NCBI GenBank assembly: GCA_002712305.1
Contig: PATE01000019.1
Location: 27,114 to 33,360, forward strand
Source: Gemmatimonadota bacterium
GTDB lineage: Bacteria; Latescibacterota; UBA2968; UBA8231
Length of the DNA stretch: 6,247 nt
Reading direction: 5' to 3'
Below are positions 2-5,965 of the stretch, one piece after another; position 1 is the stretch's first letter; the number at the start of each line of letters is the position of its first letter. The notes under the pieces are model-generated. The model was not told the origin of the DNA. It ran no database searches and was given only the letters and a program-made list of their open reading frames with translations. The translations under genes and the position numbers were made by a program.

Positions 2-1312
2 CGGCCGCCGACCGTCCTGTTCTACAGTCGTCGCATCGGAATTCAGGATGGCTACGGAATCCCTGTGACGTACGGTGCGAAACTCACGGGACGCGTGGGT
101 GCTTATGAGGTAGGTCTGCTGAACTCGATGACAGATCCCGCTGTGTTTCGTGACGGGGTGGAGCAGGACGAGTATCTGTCTGACACCGGCGATTGGTACG
201 ACGACGACGCTCTTGACGACTTGAGCGACCGCGAGCAGGATGCGCTCTCCTTCATAGATACGGTCACTGTCGACGTCATCGATACTCTCGACGTAGATCG
301 CACGGTGTTCACCGTTGCACGAGTGAAACGCGATATCCTCGGTCGTTCAAATGTGGGTATCATGCTCGCCGATCGCTCTCCAGGTGAAGACGAGGACTAC
401 AATCGAACCGCGGGAGTAGACGCAAATCTGTCCTTCCTCGATGGTTCGGTGAATGTGATGGGATTCGCCGCTCAGAGTTGGACACCTGGCCTCTCCGGCC
501 AGGATCGTGCCGCTTACGTCGAACTCGATCGGCGATGGGGGGTCGCCGAGTTCAACACGTCCTTCCTCGATGTGGGTGAGAACTTCAACCCGGAGATCGG
601 GTTCGTGCCGCGCGATGACGTCCGTCGGTTCAAGACGCGGACCAGCTATCGGCCTCGATCCTCCCTCGGCTGGATTCGACTCTACTCTCTGGGGGTCTCG
701 TGGACCCATTTGCTTGACCGTGACAATACGCTGCAGACGCGGCGTCTGAATGGATCGGCTTTCGTCAATCTGGAGGCGGGTGACTGGATCGGCATCGAGG
801 TGCACGAGCGATTCGAGCGCCTCGACGAATCCTTTGAGATTCACGATGACATCGATATCCCGGATGGGAAGTTCAGTTTCACGGAGGCGAGTCTTGGCTT
901 CTTTCTCAGCAATGCGCGTCGCATCGGCGGGCGAGGCCAGATCGCCGTGGGCGGCTTCTTCGGGGGCACGCGTCGGCGAGCTGACGTGGAAATCAGTTAC
1001 AAGGCCAACGAGCAAGTCAGTCTGGAATCGGCCTACGAGATCAATCGCGTCGAGTTGCCGGCGGGGTCGTTCACGACTCATCGGGCCAGTCAACGAATGC
1101 TGCTGACGCTCTCCACCGATCTCTACATTCGTGGTCTTGCACAATGGAACAGTCAGCGAGAGGTTGTGGGGGGGAATCTCCTGCTCGGCTATCGCTACAA
1201 GCCGGGCAGTGATCTGTTCCTCGTGTACAATCATCTGTTTGACACCGACGACAGCCTGCATCAGCTCGATCGCTCGATCCAGCTCAAGTTGGCATACTAC
1301 TGGAGCCCCTGA
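2..1312 (+). CDS. DUF5916 family outer-membrane-type protein, C-terminal part (5' truncated)
   Basis: The frame is open from base 2 and ends at TGA 1310-1312, giving about 436 residues with no start in the window. The ATG and GTG codons near 62-128 lie inside conserved sequence and are not starts. Motifs I recognise from DUF5916 are LFYSRRIG close to the window start, GAKLTGRVG, VKRDILGRSNVG, GVDANLSF, FNPEIGFVPRDDVRRF and, near the end, GYRYKPGSDLFLVYN followed by a final strand LKLAYYW. Alternating polar and aromatic strands suggest a beta-barrel ending with an outer-membrane-type C-terminal strand. Family members are usually roughly 700-850 residues, with an N-terminal CBM9-like carbohydrate-binding domain and a signal peptide; both would lie upstream of this window. 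The cellular role is not established; a surface binding or uptake role is inference. An Asp/Glu-rich stretch at 134-301 looks like an insertion. The next gene starts 90 bases downstream. Confidence 0.82.
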   Translation, partial: RPPTVLFYSRRIGIQDGYGIPVTYGAKLTGRVGAYEVGLLNSMTDPAVFRDGVEQDEYLSDTGDWYDDDALDDLSDREQDALSFIDTVTVDVIDTLDVDRTVFTVARVKRDILGRSNVGIMLADRSPGEDEDYNRTAGVDANLSFLDGSVNVMGFAAQSWTPGLSGQDRAAYVELDRRWGVAEFNTSFLDVGENFNPEIGFVPRDDVRRFKTRTSYRPRSSLGWIRLYSLGVSWTHLLDRDNTLQTRRLNGSAFVNLEAGDWIGIEVHERFERLDESFEIHDDIDIPDGKFSFTEASLGFFLSNARRIGGRGQIAVGGFFGGTRRRADVEISYKANEQVSLESAYEINRVELPAGSFTTHRASQRMLLTLSTDLYIRGLAQWNSQREVVGGNLLLGYRYKPGSDLFLVYNHLFDTDDSLHQLDRSIQLKLAYYWSP

Positions 1313-1402: not shown

Positions 1403-1522
1403 ATGCTCATCTGGATCTTCGCAGCCACCTGTGCAGGCCTCCTGATCATGACCGGCCGAAGCTGGATGGAATTCACCCAGCGTGCCGATCAATTGAATCG
1501 AGAGATCGGTGAACTGGAGTGA
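1403..1522 (+). CDS. Small membrane-anchor peptide; N-terminal part of an interrupted coiled-coil gene
   Basis: This is a 39-residue frame from ATG 1403 to TGA 1520-1522. Residues 2-17 are a hydrophobic run (LIWIFAATCAGLLIMT) that could form one short membrane segment or uncleaved anchor. Arg19 and Arg27 follow it, which by the positive-inside rule places the C-terminal side in the cytoplasm. Residues 28-39 (ADQLNREIGELE) begin a coiled coil with Leu31, Ile35 and Leu38 in core spacing. The coiled coil resumes directly after the stop, in the same frame and heptad register, so I read this as the front end of one 113-codon gene rather than a finished protein. No clear SD precedes the ATG, and the frame is closed upstream by TAA at 1343-1345, so ATG 1403 is the best start available. 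I do not recognise a family. Confidence 0.5.
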   Translation: MLIWIFAATCAGLLIMTGRSWMEFTQRADQLNREIGELE

Positions 1523-1744
1523 TTGATCGAGGAACACACCAAGCGCCTCGAGGAGGTCAGGGCTCGTGTACAGGAGGTGAAGGAGCAGATCGCCGCCAAG
1601 GTCGAAGAGTGCGACGAACTGGATCGGCGTGTGGGCGAACTCGAGGAGGAGCTCAAGACTCTGGAGACACAACTCGAGCGACTGAAACCGAAGAGCAGAC
1701 AGGTCGACAAGAACGACAACGAGGACTGGTTGTGGAAGAGGTAG
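1523..1744 (+). CDS. Coiled-coil segment; C-terminal part of an interrupted coiled-coil gene
   Basis: This frame encodes 73 residues, opening with TTG directly after the TGA at 1520-1522 and ending at TAG 1742-1744. It is almost entirely one long Glu/Arg/Lys-rich helix, with Leu, Val and Ile recurring at 3-4 spacing up to the LETQLERL stretch, followed by a polar, basic tail ending WLWKR. A single Cys sits in a core 'a' position. As a separate gene it would need TTG initiation; GGTGA at 1508-1512 is a possible weak SD, and GGAG at 1516-1519 is too close. Because frame and heptad phase match the preceding anchor peptide, it more likely belongs to a single product of 1403-1744. Alternatives are a recent C-to-T nonsense change (CGA to TGA), a sequencing error, readthrough, or two translationally coupled genes. 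No family is recognised. Confidence 0.5.
   Translation: MIEEHTKRLEEVRARVQEVKEQIAAKVEECDELDRRVGELEEELKTLETQLERLKPKSRQVDKNDNEDWLWKR
1735..1741 (+). promoter_or_regulatory. Ribosome binding site for the second coiled-coil gene
   Basis: GAAGAGG lies 8 bases before ATG 1750 and supports that start over the in-frame GTG at 1732, which would sit on top of the SD. It lies inside the last codons of the preceding frame, so the two genes are probably translationally coupled. Confidence 0.5.
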
Positions 1745-1749
1745 TCGGC

Positions 1750-2073
1750 ATGGCCGCTATTGGTTCTCTGGTGGGCTTCGCTCTGGTTAAGGCTTATTCC
1801 AGCAAGACGCTCAACGAGCTACGTGCCGAGTACGGTCGCCTGATGACGCAGGAGCGTCACCTGCGGCAACAGTGCGAGCACGAAGAGGACGAACTCGAGA
1901 GTGCCGAAGCACGCATGGAGCAGTTGGACACGGACAAGGACAACCTCAGCAAGGACGCGGACAGGTTGTCGGCGGAAATCGAACGTGTCGATGGAGAGGT
2001 CCAGCGCGCCAAGGGTGACGATGAGGACGAGGACGGCTCAGCCAGCGACGAGGGAGAGGGGTCAGCGGGATGA
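1750..2073 (+). CDS. Small membrane-anchored coiled-coil protein with acidic tail
   Basis: The protein has 107 residues, starts at ATG 1750 and ends at TGA 2071-2073. Residues 1-16 are a short hydrophobic, Gly/Ala-rich segment (IGSLVGFALV) that could anchor the protein in a membrane, although it is short for a full span. From Leu21 to Ala87 the sequence keeps an unbroken 3-4 heptad pattern (Leu21, Leu24, Tyr28, Leu31, Leu38, Cys42, Leu49, Met56, Leu59, Leu66, Leu73, Ile77, Val80, Val84), predicting about 65 residues of continuous coiled coil. The last 18 or so residues are an acidic Asp/Glu/Ser/Gly tail, probably disordered. The layout of anchor, coil and tail, the length and a core-position Cys all match the preceding interrupted gene, so the two may be paralogues or partners. 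Its stop overlaps the hydrolase start as ATGA. No function is recognised. Confidence 0.75.
   Translation: MAAIGSLVGFALVKAYSSKTLNELRAEYGRLMTQERHLRQQCEHEEDELESAEARMEQLDTDKDNLSKDADRLSAEIERVDGEVQRAKGDDEDEDGSASDEGEGSAG
2052..2061 (+). promoter_or_regulatory. Strong ribosome binding site for the ceramidase-like gene
   Basis: The purine run GGGAGAGGGG lies 8 bases before ATG 2070, within the acidic-tail codons of the upstream coiled-coil gene. Together with the ATGA stop/start overlap it fixes ATG 2070 as the start and implies coupled translation of the two proteins. Confidence 0.7.
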
Positions 2074-3557
2074 GTCGTTCCGGTCAGGCATTGATGGCCG
2101 GCGTCGCCGCCGTCGATATCACCGGCACTGCTCGAGAGCAGACGGACGATCCACTCTACGGTCGGATCGATGCGGAAGCCGCCGCCGACCGGTTATTCGT
2201 AAAGGCTCTCGTCCTGCAAAACGGTTCGACGACGGCTGTGGTGATCACCATCGATGCTGTGGCGATCGAAGAGATCGGATCTATCCGCAACAACTATCTG
2301 GCTACCGTGCGACAGGCGTTGTCGTCAGAGCTGACGATCGAACCCACGTGTGTGCTCGTCAATGCCAGCCACTGCCACGGCGTCGTCTGCAGCGATGTGG
2401 CCGAGCGGACGATCGAAGCTGTTCGACAGGCGAAGGCGCAGCTGGTGCCCGTCCGGGTTGGTGTGGGTACGGGTCATGAAGACCACATCATGGAGAATCG
2501 TCGGCTTCGTTTGAAGGGCGGTCACGTGGCAGACGTGAGGCACGCCTACAGCCTGCCGCCCGATGACGAGATCGCCTCTGTGGGGCCTGTCGATCCGCAG
2601 ATCGGCATCCTTAGACTCGACCGACTTGACGGTGGGACCCTTGCTGTCGTCTACCACTTCGCCTGCCACCCGATCATCGGCGTCCCCAGTGGCGCCAACA
2701 CGGCCGACATCTCTGGCTTCGCCAGTCGTGTCATCGAGGATCAACTCGGCGGCGGCGCGATGGCCCTGTTCCTCCAGGGCTGCGGTGCGGATATCAACCC
2801 GATCCTCTATCGAGACTTCGACAATCCGCCCGATGCCCGGACTCACGGTGCTCGCCTTGGCCTGAGCACGATGCGCGGTGTGGTGGATGTAACCTGTGAC
2901 GACGATGCACGTCTCGGCCTGATTCAACGGACCATCCAGATTCCACGGGCAGATCTGAGTTTGCGAATCGCCGAGATGGAGCAGGAACAGAAGCAGCTGC
3001 TGGCTTCATTGCGGCCGACGAATCTGAATCTGAAGAGTTACGTCCCTCTACTGATCAAACACCGCCTGTCGCCTGAGTATCCCTCCTACGATGCTCATCG
3101 GTATCTGCATGAGGAATCGTTGGGGCGGCAGGATCTGCGTCGGCTGGATACGAAGAACCAGCAGCAGATGGAGGTCTACAGCGCCAACATCACGATCATG
3201 GAGCAACTGACGAGGCTGCAGGTCAATCTCGACCTGCTGCGCAATCACCAGCGTCGATTCATCGAGGACGGTACGGGATTCATCGATGCAGAGGTGGTGG
3301 CGTTGCGCGTGGGAGACTTCGTGTTGGTCACATTCCCGGGTGAATTGTCTGTCGAACTGGGACTTCGCATCAAGGCAGATTCACCGCATGCACATACCTT
3401 CGTGTCCGGTGTCACCAACGGTTATCTCTATTACACGCCGACGGTGGAGCAACTGGCCAATCGGGGGCGGGCGCAGGAGGACAGCGATTGTCTGGTGGAC
3501 GAGTCCTGGGAAAAAGTGTTCACCGACCACGTGGATCAGATGCTCAAGCAGGTGTAG
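2070..3557 (+). CDS. Neutral/alkaline ceramidase-like amide hydrolase (N-terminal catalytic domain type)
   Basis: This 495-residue protein has the landmarks of the neutral/alkaline non-lysosomal ceramidase N-terminal domain (PF04734). Residues 10-18 are AGVAAVDIT, the usual opening strand. NASHCH at 98-103 matches the family's His-x-His metal site, ACHP at 198-201 supplies a second His (200), GCGADINP spans 237-244, PGE at 423-425 supplies the expected Glu, and GYLYYTPT at 451-458 supplies the expected Tyr. Thus candidates for all four zinc ligands described for Pseudomonas neutral ceramidase (His, His, Glu, Tyr) are present, and I expect an active zinc enzyme. It lacks the C-terminal domain of secreted ceramidases and has no signal peptide, so it is probably cytoplasmic. 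Residues about 290-400 form a charged, helix-rich insertion without catalytic motifs. Many stand-alone bacterial members have unknown amide substrates, so ceramide is not assured. It is coupled to the upstream coiled-coil gene. Confidence 0.83.
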   Translation: MSRSGQALMAGVAAVDITGTAREQTDDPLYGRIDAEAAADRLFVKALVLQNGSTTAVVITIDAVAIEEIGSIRNNYLATVRQALSSELTIEPTCVLVNASHCHGVVCSDVAERTIEAVRQAKAQLVPVRVGVGTGHEDHIMENRRLRLKGGHVADVRHAYSLPPDDEIASVGPVDPQIGILRLDRLDGGTLAVVYHFACHPIIGVPSGANTADISGFASRVIEDQLGGGAMALFLQGCGADINPILYRDFDNPPDARTHGARLGLSTMRGVVDVTCDDDARLGLIQRTIQIPRADLSLRIAEMEQEQKQLLASLRPTNLNLKSYVPLLIKHRLSPEYPSYDAHRYLHEESLGRQDLRRLDTKNQQQMEVYSANITIMEQLTRLQVNLDLLRNHQRRFIEDGTGFIDAEVVALRVGDFVLVTFPGELSVELGLRIKADSPHAHTFVSGVTNGYLYYTPTVEQLANRGRAQEDSDCLVDESWEKVFTDHVDQMLKQV

Positions 3558-4947
3558 CAACGAACTGCAGGCTATAGAGGTCAGCGTCGCTGAGCACGAA
3601 ACGTAGGCGTACGGGTTTTCCGGCCAGAGAGCTTACATCGCCGGACCCTTTCCAGGTGACGCGCCGATCCAACTCATCCCCATAGATCTCATCGGCATCG
3701 CGAAGGACAAACCCCTTGATGGCTTTTCCGTTCTCCTCCTGGATCTCTACGCGCACCGAACCCGCCGCAGATGTGGCCACATTGAGGCTGAGCTGATTCC
3801 CCTCGAAAGTGAGGGTGCGTGTCAGAAGCTCGCCGTCCCTGAGTGGCGCGTTGGCCGAGACGAACCCATCAGCGCGAACGGTGAAGCGTCGCAGTCGACA
3901 GCCATCCCCACGGTAGTATCCCTCGGTGGTGAAGATGGACAATTCCTTCGGCGCACTGGGTAGATCGTTGGCTGTCTCGAGGATGCCCCAGGCGGTCATA
4001 TTGTTGCGATTCTCCCAGCGTTCGGGCTGTAGACCAGGTCGAACGAGGGCCTCCGTCCAGCGCTTGAATCGCAGGCCGTCGCGACTGGTCATGTACACGG
4101 CATCGGACATGCCATTGTGCTCGTGGCCATACATCGATCGCTCGGGGACGAAGCGCTTCGGGAAGCCCATATAGATGTGGGGTGCACGGTAGTAGGGCGT
4201 CACGGCGTTGGTGTAGAGATGCTCCAAGGGCGCATCGCCAAAGTCGATAAACTTCGGCTTCGTCCACTTGCGAAAGTCTTTGGATGTGCAGGTCATGATG
4301 TGACGTGTACGCTGACCGTCGATGTAGACGGAATGCCGATGGTAGTCGACGTAACATTCCCGCAGCGGATCCCAGAAGGCGAGATTCTGCGAGTCGAAGG
4401 CGCCTTCGGTGATGACGGGGTCCTTGCGCAGCAACTCCCAATGAATACCGTCGGCCGACTTGAAGGCGTACAGGGCCCGACCATGACTGCCCAGCGCCTT
4501 GTATTGCTCTCCCTCGCGGCATTTGGGATTGGGATCCCGGAAGGGCGTGAAATTGTGGGATCCGTATCCCTCCCAGATCACATTGTTGCGCGTCGAGCCT
4601 TGATAGTTCACCAGCCCCACATCGGGCCGTTCCCAGTTGATACCATCCCGACTCTCTGCATAACACACGACCTGCCGCTTCGTACTATGCCCACCCGGAT
4701 CGTAGTGCGTCCCGCGGTAGTACATGCGGAACAGCTTGCCGTCCTGAAACACCGTGTGGTAGCAGCAGGTGTTGCCTTCCCACGGCACATTGTGGTCGAT
4801 GGCGACATTGCGGGGCACCGGTTTCTGCAGGCGTAGCTCGACACGCTGCAGATCTTCGATGAGATAGTCGTCGATGAACAACTCGCGGCGCGATCCGAGA
4901 GAGATCGGTTTTTCATTCTTGCCTTTGGATCGCTTCGACGTCGCCAT
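3544..4947 (-). CDS. GH32/GH43-like five-bladed beta-propeller protein, putative glycosidase-related
   Basis: I place the start at ATG 4947-4945 (467 residues): GAGAG lies 7 bases upstream, whereas the longer TTG frame from 5034 has no SD and adds 29 unconserved residues. The protein opens with a Lys/Ser-rich stretch and then ELFIDDYLI at 22-30, a hallmark of a family common in Planctomycetota and Verrucomicrobiota and usually annotated as glycosyl-hydrolase-32-like. Repeated blade motifs follow: PWEG, MYYRG, SRDGINWERP, SADGIHWE, DPLRECYVDYHRH, EHLYTNAVTPYYRAPHIYMGFPKRF, TSRDGLRFKRW and ENRNNMTAWG. Together they fit a five-bladed arabinanase/invertase-like fold. The last 120 or so residues form a beta-sandwich (TSAAGSVRVEIQEENGK, VRLRFVLSDADLYSLQF). 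There is no signal peptide. Substrate and catalytic activity are unknown. Its 3' end overlaps that of the ceramidase-like gene by 14 bases. Confidence 0.82.
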   Translation of the reverse strand: MATSKRSKGKNEKPISLGSRRELFIDDYLIEDLQRVELRLQKPVPRNVAIDHNVPWEGNTCCYHTVFQDGKLFRMYYRGTHYDPGGHSTKRQVVCYAESRDGINWERPDVGLVNYQGSTRNNVIWEGYGSHNFTPFRDPNPKCREGEQYKALGSHGRALYAFKSADGIHWELLRKDPVITEGAFDSQNLAFWDPLRECYVDYHRHSVYIDGQRTRHIMTCTSKDFRKWTKPKFIDFGDAPLEHLYTNAVTPYYRAPHIYMGFPKRFVPERSMYGHEHNGMSDAVYMTSRDGLRFKRWTEALVRPGLQPERWENRNNMTAWGILETANDLPSAPKELSIFTTEGYYRGDGCRLRRFTVRADGFVSANAPLRDGELLTRTLTFEGNQLSLNVATSAAGSVRVEIQEENGKAIKGFVLRDADEIYGDELDRRVTWKGSGDVSSLAGKPVRLRFVLSDADLYSLQFVATPA

Positions 4948-4971
4948 TTCGGTACTCTCTTGCTTTGCGTT

Positions 4972-5034
4972 TTGTCGGGGGCTTTCCTCGGCGACAAGTA
5001 ACGACGGGACGTCCTTCGTGACCAGCCCCGACAA
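4972..5034. repeat. Spaced inverted repeat in a divergent intergenic spacer
   Basis: The spacer 4948-5067 separates the propeller gene (-) from the membrane-protein gene (+). It contains perfect 9-bp arms TTGTCGGGG (4972-4980) and CCCCGACAA (5026-5034), with 45 bases between them. The arms can be extended inward by CT/AG if one G is bulged. An 8-bp palindrome, GGACGTCC, sits at 5007-5014 between the arms. Possible roles are a repressor operator for two divergent promoters or a long hairpin in a leader. I see no convincing -35/-10 pair. If the propeller gene used the TTG at 5034, this repeat would be coding, which I consider less likely. Confidence 0.45.
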
Positions 5035-5055
5035 TTGCTCAATTCAGATGACGGT

Positions 5056-5060
5056 GGAGG
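5056..5060 (+). promoter_or_regulatory. Ribosome binding site for the membrane-protein gene
   Basis: GGAGG lies 7 bases before ATG 5068 and decides this start over the in-frame TTG at 5035, which has no SD and falls beside the inverted-repeat arm. Confidence 0.7.
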
Positions 5061-5581
5061 CCGAGAGATGCCGCTAGAGAAACAGATGGATCCGAGGCCA
5101 CTTCGGTTTCTTCAAGCCGCGGTGCTGGCTCTGGCAGCAGCTTTCCTGCAGCAGATCGTCCACGTGTCGACACACGGATTTGTGGCGCTCGCCGTGGGCA
5201 AACACTGGGACATGTTGAATCTGTTCGCTTCGGGCACCAGTTGGCCCGGCGAACCCATACCGTCGGGGGATGGCTGGGTCGCCGGCAGTGCAGCCATCGT
5301 CGGCATCATCGCTGGTGGCGTCGGACTGCTGCTGCTGAACCATGCCACCCTCATCGCTCGACCGAGACGGCGTCAGGCTCTCTTCTACTATGCCGCCATC
5401 AGCTGGATCGCCGGGTTCGGATATCTGTTCATCGATGCCATCTTCTTCAGTCCTGGTGGGAGCAACATCGGCGATTGGCGCAAGGTGATCGCTCTGTTCG
5501 GCGGGAGTTGGTCCGTTCGCCTGCCCATTCTGGCTATCGGACTCGCCGGAACCCTGGCCACTTACGTGTGGATGTCGAAGG

Positions 5582-5926
5582 ATGGAGCTGCGATTCGGGA
5601 CAGGCGCGCTCGATCGGGAACAGCGCCTTTGTGTGACGCTCCCCATGCTCCTGATTCCCTATTTGAGTGTGAATGTGGTGATGACGACGCTGTCCTACGG
5701 ACATCCCCTGGAGGGAACAGGCATGGCGATCGTGGCCATGAAGACGTGGATGGGGAATTCGCCTTTCTTCTGGTCCTTTTTTATCGCCGGCTACTGGGCC
5801 GCCTTTCGGGACGGCATCGATCGAACAAGCCCTCTGCCAGAGACGGCTTCCATCGCGTGGATTCTGCTGCCCGCCGGTTTCGTCGCCGTCGCCGTCGGCA
5901 TATTGCTGCCGACGGTCAACTTCTAG
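5582..5926 (+). CDS. C-terminal part of the frameshifted membrane protein
   Basis: This 114-residue frame holds the distal half of the membrane protein above. After a polar loop (LRFGTGALDREQR) come hydrophobic segments around LPMLLIPYLSVNVVMTT, SPFFWSFFIAGYWAAF and IAWILLPAGFVAVAVGILL. Its ATG 5582 has no usable SD: GAAGG abuts the codon with no spacing. It also begins in mid-protein, so independent initiation is unlikely. As sequenced it would be made only if ribosomes shifted +1 near 5580. I list it separately because the real coding sequence of this stretch is in this frame, not in the frame that remains open to 5943. Confidence 0.6.
   Translation: MELRFGTGALDREQRLCVTLPMLLIPYLSVNVVMTTLSYGHPLEGTGMAIVAMKTWMGNSPFFWSFFIAGYWAAFRDGIDRTSPLPETASIAWILLPAGFVAVAVGILLPTVNF
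5892..5915 (+). other. GC-rich hairpin at the 3' end of the membrane-protein gene
   Basis: CCGTCGGCA (5892-5900) and TGCCGACGG (5907-5915) are perfect 9-base complements around a 6-base loop, and a G-U pair can extend the stem by one. The hairpin ends 8 bases before the TAG at 5924. No U-tract follows (TCAACTTCTAG), so it is not a standard intrinsic terminator. It could be a weak or non-canonical terminator, an mRNA 3' stabiliser, or a by-product of GC-rich coding sequence. Confidence 0.45.
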
Positions 5927-5965
5927 CCATCGCCACGGCTTGACCTCATTCAGGAAGTTGCCACC

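Follow-up and report, generated by a model that had tools for sequence, protein, structure and literature searches.

Bacterial proteins that combine a membrane anchor with a coil are represented in Pfam by DUF948 (PF06103). In-frame TGA codons occur in bacterial selenoprotein genes of the fdhF type, in genomes that encode tRNA-Sec and SelB, and bacterial SECIS elements carry a GU motif in their apical loop. Readthrough of a stop codon is favoured by a following C, not by a following U. Private stops in conserved genes are also produced by ordinary nonsense mutations and by consensus errors in metagenome-assembled genomes, in assemblies that carry isolated N's and frameshifts. The window analysed here, the whole stretch of 6,247 nucleotides at C40:27114-33360 of genome G000, contains a small gene with an in-frame TGA, which we call coilA (1403..1744, plus strand). 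The protein matches DUF948 over residues 5-88 and has the same layout of anchor and coil, but the score of 33.5 bits is under the gathering cut-off of 37.2 and is unspecific, with eukaryotic coil families scoring equally; Pfam scans of the coils returned unspecific coiled-coil matches only. The closest counterparts of coilA are members of an unnamed family found in the window's GTDB family and class, with which it shares its length, membrane anchor, heptad coil and C-terminal KP-containing segment, as well as a second gene of the family, coilB, directly downstream. The window copy alone differs from this family in having an internal stop.

The reading frame described in the earlier note was confirmed by re-reading of the sequence: it opens at ATG 1403, meets TGA at 1520-1522 as codon 40 and is then open in the same frame to TAG at 1742-1744. 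The same note had proposed that this is one gene of 113 codons whose stop arose either by a recent nonsense change or by mis-sequencing, and had suggested a comparison of the stop-masked translation with related genomes. The homologues recovered were continuous, in agreement with this proposal. G001 (Gemmatimonadetes bacterium SI074_bin69, a genome of the same genus) has a continuous 113-codon open reading frame that is 72% identical to coilA over all 113 codons and has the same neighbours. The homologues in G009 (54% identical) and G012 (43% identical) are also continuous, as are paralogues in G005, G009 and G001, so that six of six close homologues in related genomes are unbroken. A class-wide profile search detected more distant relatives (E 3e-11 to 7e-6). 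None of the distant family loci that were read had an internal stop, the stops counted by the profile search being located at the C-terminal end, and none was reported by that search for the distant relative L121. Among the other family members that were read, codon 40 and its vicinity were free of stops. Anchor and coil as separate genes, the arrangement that the note had set against a single gene, were not found in any relative examined. On these sequence comparisons, coilA is a single gene, encoding a membrane-anchored coiled-coil protein and interrupted at codon 40, and the stop is private to the window's genome assembly.

The heptad repeat was re-examined on both sides of the stop. The core positions listed previously are correct, including His45, Lys66 and Cys70. 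The heptad strength observed for codons 41-98 was not reached in any of 10,000 shuffles, and that for codons 24-39 was reached in 30 of 10,000. The two halves prefer the same heptad phase of the seven available. The note had taken the shared frame and phase as an argument for one gene; the phases do agree, but the argument is weak alone, since two halves would agree in about 1 of 7 cases by chance and 73 open codons have a chance of ~8% at this base composition (59% G+C). The one-gene question is decided by the homologues and not by the heptad. They also bear on a split gene, in which a 39-residue membrane peptide would be followed by a separate 73-residue coil through reinitiation at TTG 1523. 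A TTG does lie directly 3' of the stop (1523..1525, plus strand) with GGAG just upstream, consistent with such a start. However, this TTG is the codon for Leu41, which is invariant in close homologues, and is therefore not a retained start, and no relative encodes the halves separately. We consider a split gene very improbable.

Codon 40 corresponds to heptad position f, where the residue varies freely among homologues. In the close homologues the codon is GAA, GGA, CAG, GGC, GGT or TCT (Glu, Gly, Gln, Gly, Gly and Ser), and neither TGA nor a Cys codon occurs at this position in any of the six. The previously suggested Arg ancestor (CGA) did not hold up, as the Arg codon occurs in none of them. 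GGA is the codon in G009, and a GGA ancestor would give both the TGA of the window and the GAA of G001 by one step each, suggesting by parsimony over few sequences that the replaced residue was probably Gly. Comparison with G001 gave a dN of 0.24, a dS of 2.3 and a dN/dS of about 0.10 for codons 1-39, and a dN of 0.20, a dS of 1.9 and a dN/dS of about 0.11 for codons 41-113, ratios that are rough because dS is near saturation. Simple parsimony with G009 as the outgroup placed two amino-acid changes in codons 41-100 on the window lineage and eight on that of G001. By these estimates codons 41-113 are constrained like codons 1-39 and have not decayed on the window lineage, which argues that the stop is either very young or not real; readthrough would fit as well and has to be weighed by other evidence.

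Taken with the variation at the homologous codons, these results indicate that the TGA (1520..1522, plus strand) is very likely a private single-base nonsense lesion in one 113-codon gene, present either as an error or as a very recent mutation. By our estimate a base-call or consensus error, in an assembly of uneven quality, is somewhat more likely than a real mutation that is very recent or segregating. No difference was found between this stop and the ordinary nonsense mutations and consensus errors of metagenome-assembled genomes: it is private, it lies in a conserved gene, and the assembly has isolated N's and frameshifts. In 1.10 Mb sampled from G000 there were 420 isolated N sites, almost all of them single bases, and none of this kind in the G001 sample. 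The window itself is free of N and is bounded exactly by single N's, at C40:27113 on one side and at C40:33361 on the other; 33 N's were counted in the surrounding 18.3-kb half-contig. Of the 342 N's inside confident open reading frames, 204 (60%) were at the third codon position, 80 at the first and 58 at the second (p about 2e-24). This bias is that of strain polymorphism rather than of random error, suggesting that the G000 consensus probably merges several strains and that the assembly represents a mixed population.

Lesions of other kinds were found by comparing G000 genes with their G001 orthologues (113-135 genes). Clean frameshifts were detected in L177 near 5175 and in L097 near 16035, the latter at six consecutive G's, and L054 has compensating frameshifts and an in-frame stop near 14900 in a gene that we take from its sequence to be LysE-like. 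The reverse orthologue test revealed no frameshifts in G001. The three frameshift-lesion genes of G000 lie on N-free stretches and N density does not track the lesions, which points to a general rate of error or of pseudogenes rather than to N-rich zones. coilA was the only confirmed clean single nonsense codon in the orthologue test, which indicates that nonsense errors are uncommon in the G000 assembly. The screen was filtered, as the unfiltered version was swamped by antisense open reading frames; its other stop hits were mostly in wrong-frame or terminal segments, with one further candidate in G001 (L163). Interior stops were also sought by codon usage, but this screen had a sensitivity of 11% and was not used for rates. 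With looser thresholds and no nearby start its yields were similar in the two genomes, at 19 candidates in G000 (1.10 Mb) and 13 in G001 (0.96 Mb), with no excess of TGA. Interior TAA codons, likely lesions, were also seen in apparently coding frames of G000 at 14704 of L098 (a HEAT-repeat membrane protein) and at 15236 of L056 (an unknown protein). The G000 assembly is thus flagged for mixed strains and frameshift-type lesions.

Programmed readthrough, in which both a 39-residue anchor and the full-length coil would be made, had been offered in the earlier note as an alternative to a lesion. The frame that stays open to 1742 and the purifying selection on the codons after the stop are compatible with it, although a lesion of very recent origin would leave the same selection visible. 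Folding of 40 nt immediately at the stop gave a hairpin more stable than those of most shuffled sequences (z -2.28), but the signal was gone when 50-81 nt were folded (z -0.37 to -0.66). No Rfam family was detected at the stop, nor any in the window at gathering scores, and the base after the TGA is U, not C. Together with the absence of stops around codon 40 in all homologues, the variable residue at that codon and the other lesions in the G000 assembly, these results do not support the proposal, and programmed readthrough is a very unlikely explanation. Less likely still is a TGA that is fixed in the species and read through at a low level, which would yield mostly the membrane peptide of 39 residues, together with some of the complete coil, and would amount to a newly arisen switch of expression in a bacterium equipped for selenocysteine. 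When relatives lend it no support, a stop within the frame of a heptad-perfect gene from an assembled environmental genome is not evidence for readthrough.

Whether codon 40 could encode selenocysteine was considered because G000 encodes the decoding apparatus, namely a tRNA-Sec whose anticodon is UCA (66.6 bits, cut-off 47) and SelB (350 bits, cut-off 242), at loci L071 and L079. In this and in its in-frame TGA, coilA resembles genes of the fdhF type. In contrast to those genes, it has no SECIS-like element, the loop of the hairpin at the TGA (AACACACCAAGCG) being without a GU motif, and no homologue with Cys, as codon 40 elsewhere encodes Glu, Gly, Gln or Ser. The position is moreover a structural one on the surface of the coiled coil, with no evident redox role. 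Selenocysteine at codon 40 is therefore the least probable of these readings, with next to no likelihood. Since tRNA-Sec (UCA) and SelB are encoded, true selenoproteins are probably present elsewhere in G000. Genome-wide reassignment of TGA was rejected, since prfB (RF2) is present (502.7 bits, cut-off 370) and genes of the window end in TGA (1310-1312, 2071-2073).

The favoured reading, a private nonsense lesion, has the following predicted consequences. Intact coilA would encode a short protein that is predicted to be anchored in the membrane at its N terminus and to form an uninterrupted coiled coil thereafter; it is encoded together with coilB, which specifies another anchored coil. If the TGA is real in some cells, translation there would stop after the 39-residue anchor and the coil would be lost. 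Translation of coilB would probably be lowered in the same cells through a putative coupling, as its start overlaps the end of coilA. The lesion is of an ordinary kind and teaches little itself. coilA and coilB in tandem constitute an uncharacterised family, which might merit a name of its own.

coilB (1732..2073, plus strand) is a second small membrane-anchored coiled-coil gene and is 63% identical to a G001 gene. It starts at GTG 1732, within the end of coilA, or alternatively at ATG 1750. Tandem pairs with overlapping or abutting ends were found at five loci outside G000, two in G001, two in G009 and one in G005. This recurrence suggests that the two proteins may be subunits that pair in the membrane. 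Downstream of the pair lies a neutral/alkaline ceramidase-like gene (2070..3557, plus strand; Pfam PF04734, E 3.4e-9), which is 82% identical in G001 and conserved with the pair there. Upstream is the C-terminal part of an outer-membrane-like gene (2..1312, plus strand), with a weak DUF5916 match (PF19313, E 0.046, below the cut-off); it is conserved in G001, in the same order at locus L029. Distant relatives with one coil were seen at L113-L117, L120 and L122, and most are flanked by an MgtE_N-like coiled-coil gene (a weak Pfam match, below the cut-off) and by a gene that, from its sequence, is presumably penicillin-binding-protein-like. These neighbours hint at the cell envelope, possibly at an uncharacterised envelope module.

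Two further observations concern the distal part of the window. The coding signal of a predicted membrane protein at 5035-5943 (frame of 5068) drops near 5580, and from there on it lies in the frame of ATG 5582-5926, suggesting that the window probably contains a second lesion, a frameshift. A search found no relatives of this protein. Together with a minus-strand gene (3544-5034), it accounts for ~2.4 kb at 3558-5965 of the window, located between genes that are 18 bp apart in G001 (L029 4485-4503). This difference represents either an insertion in the window or a deletion in G001.
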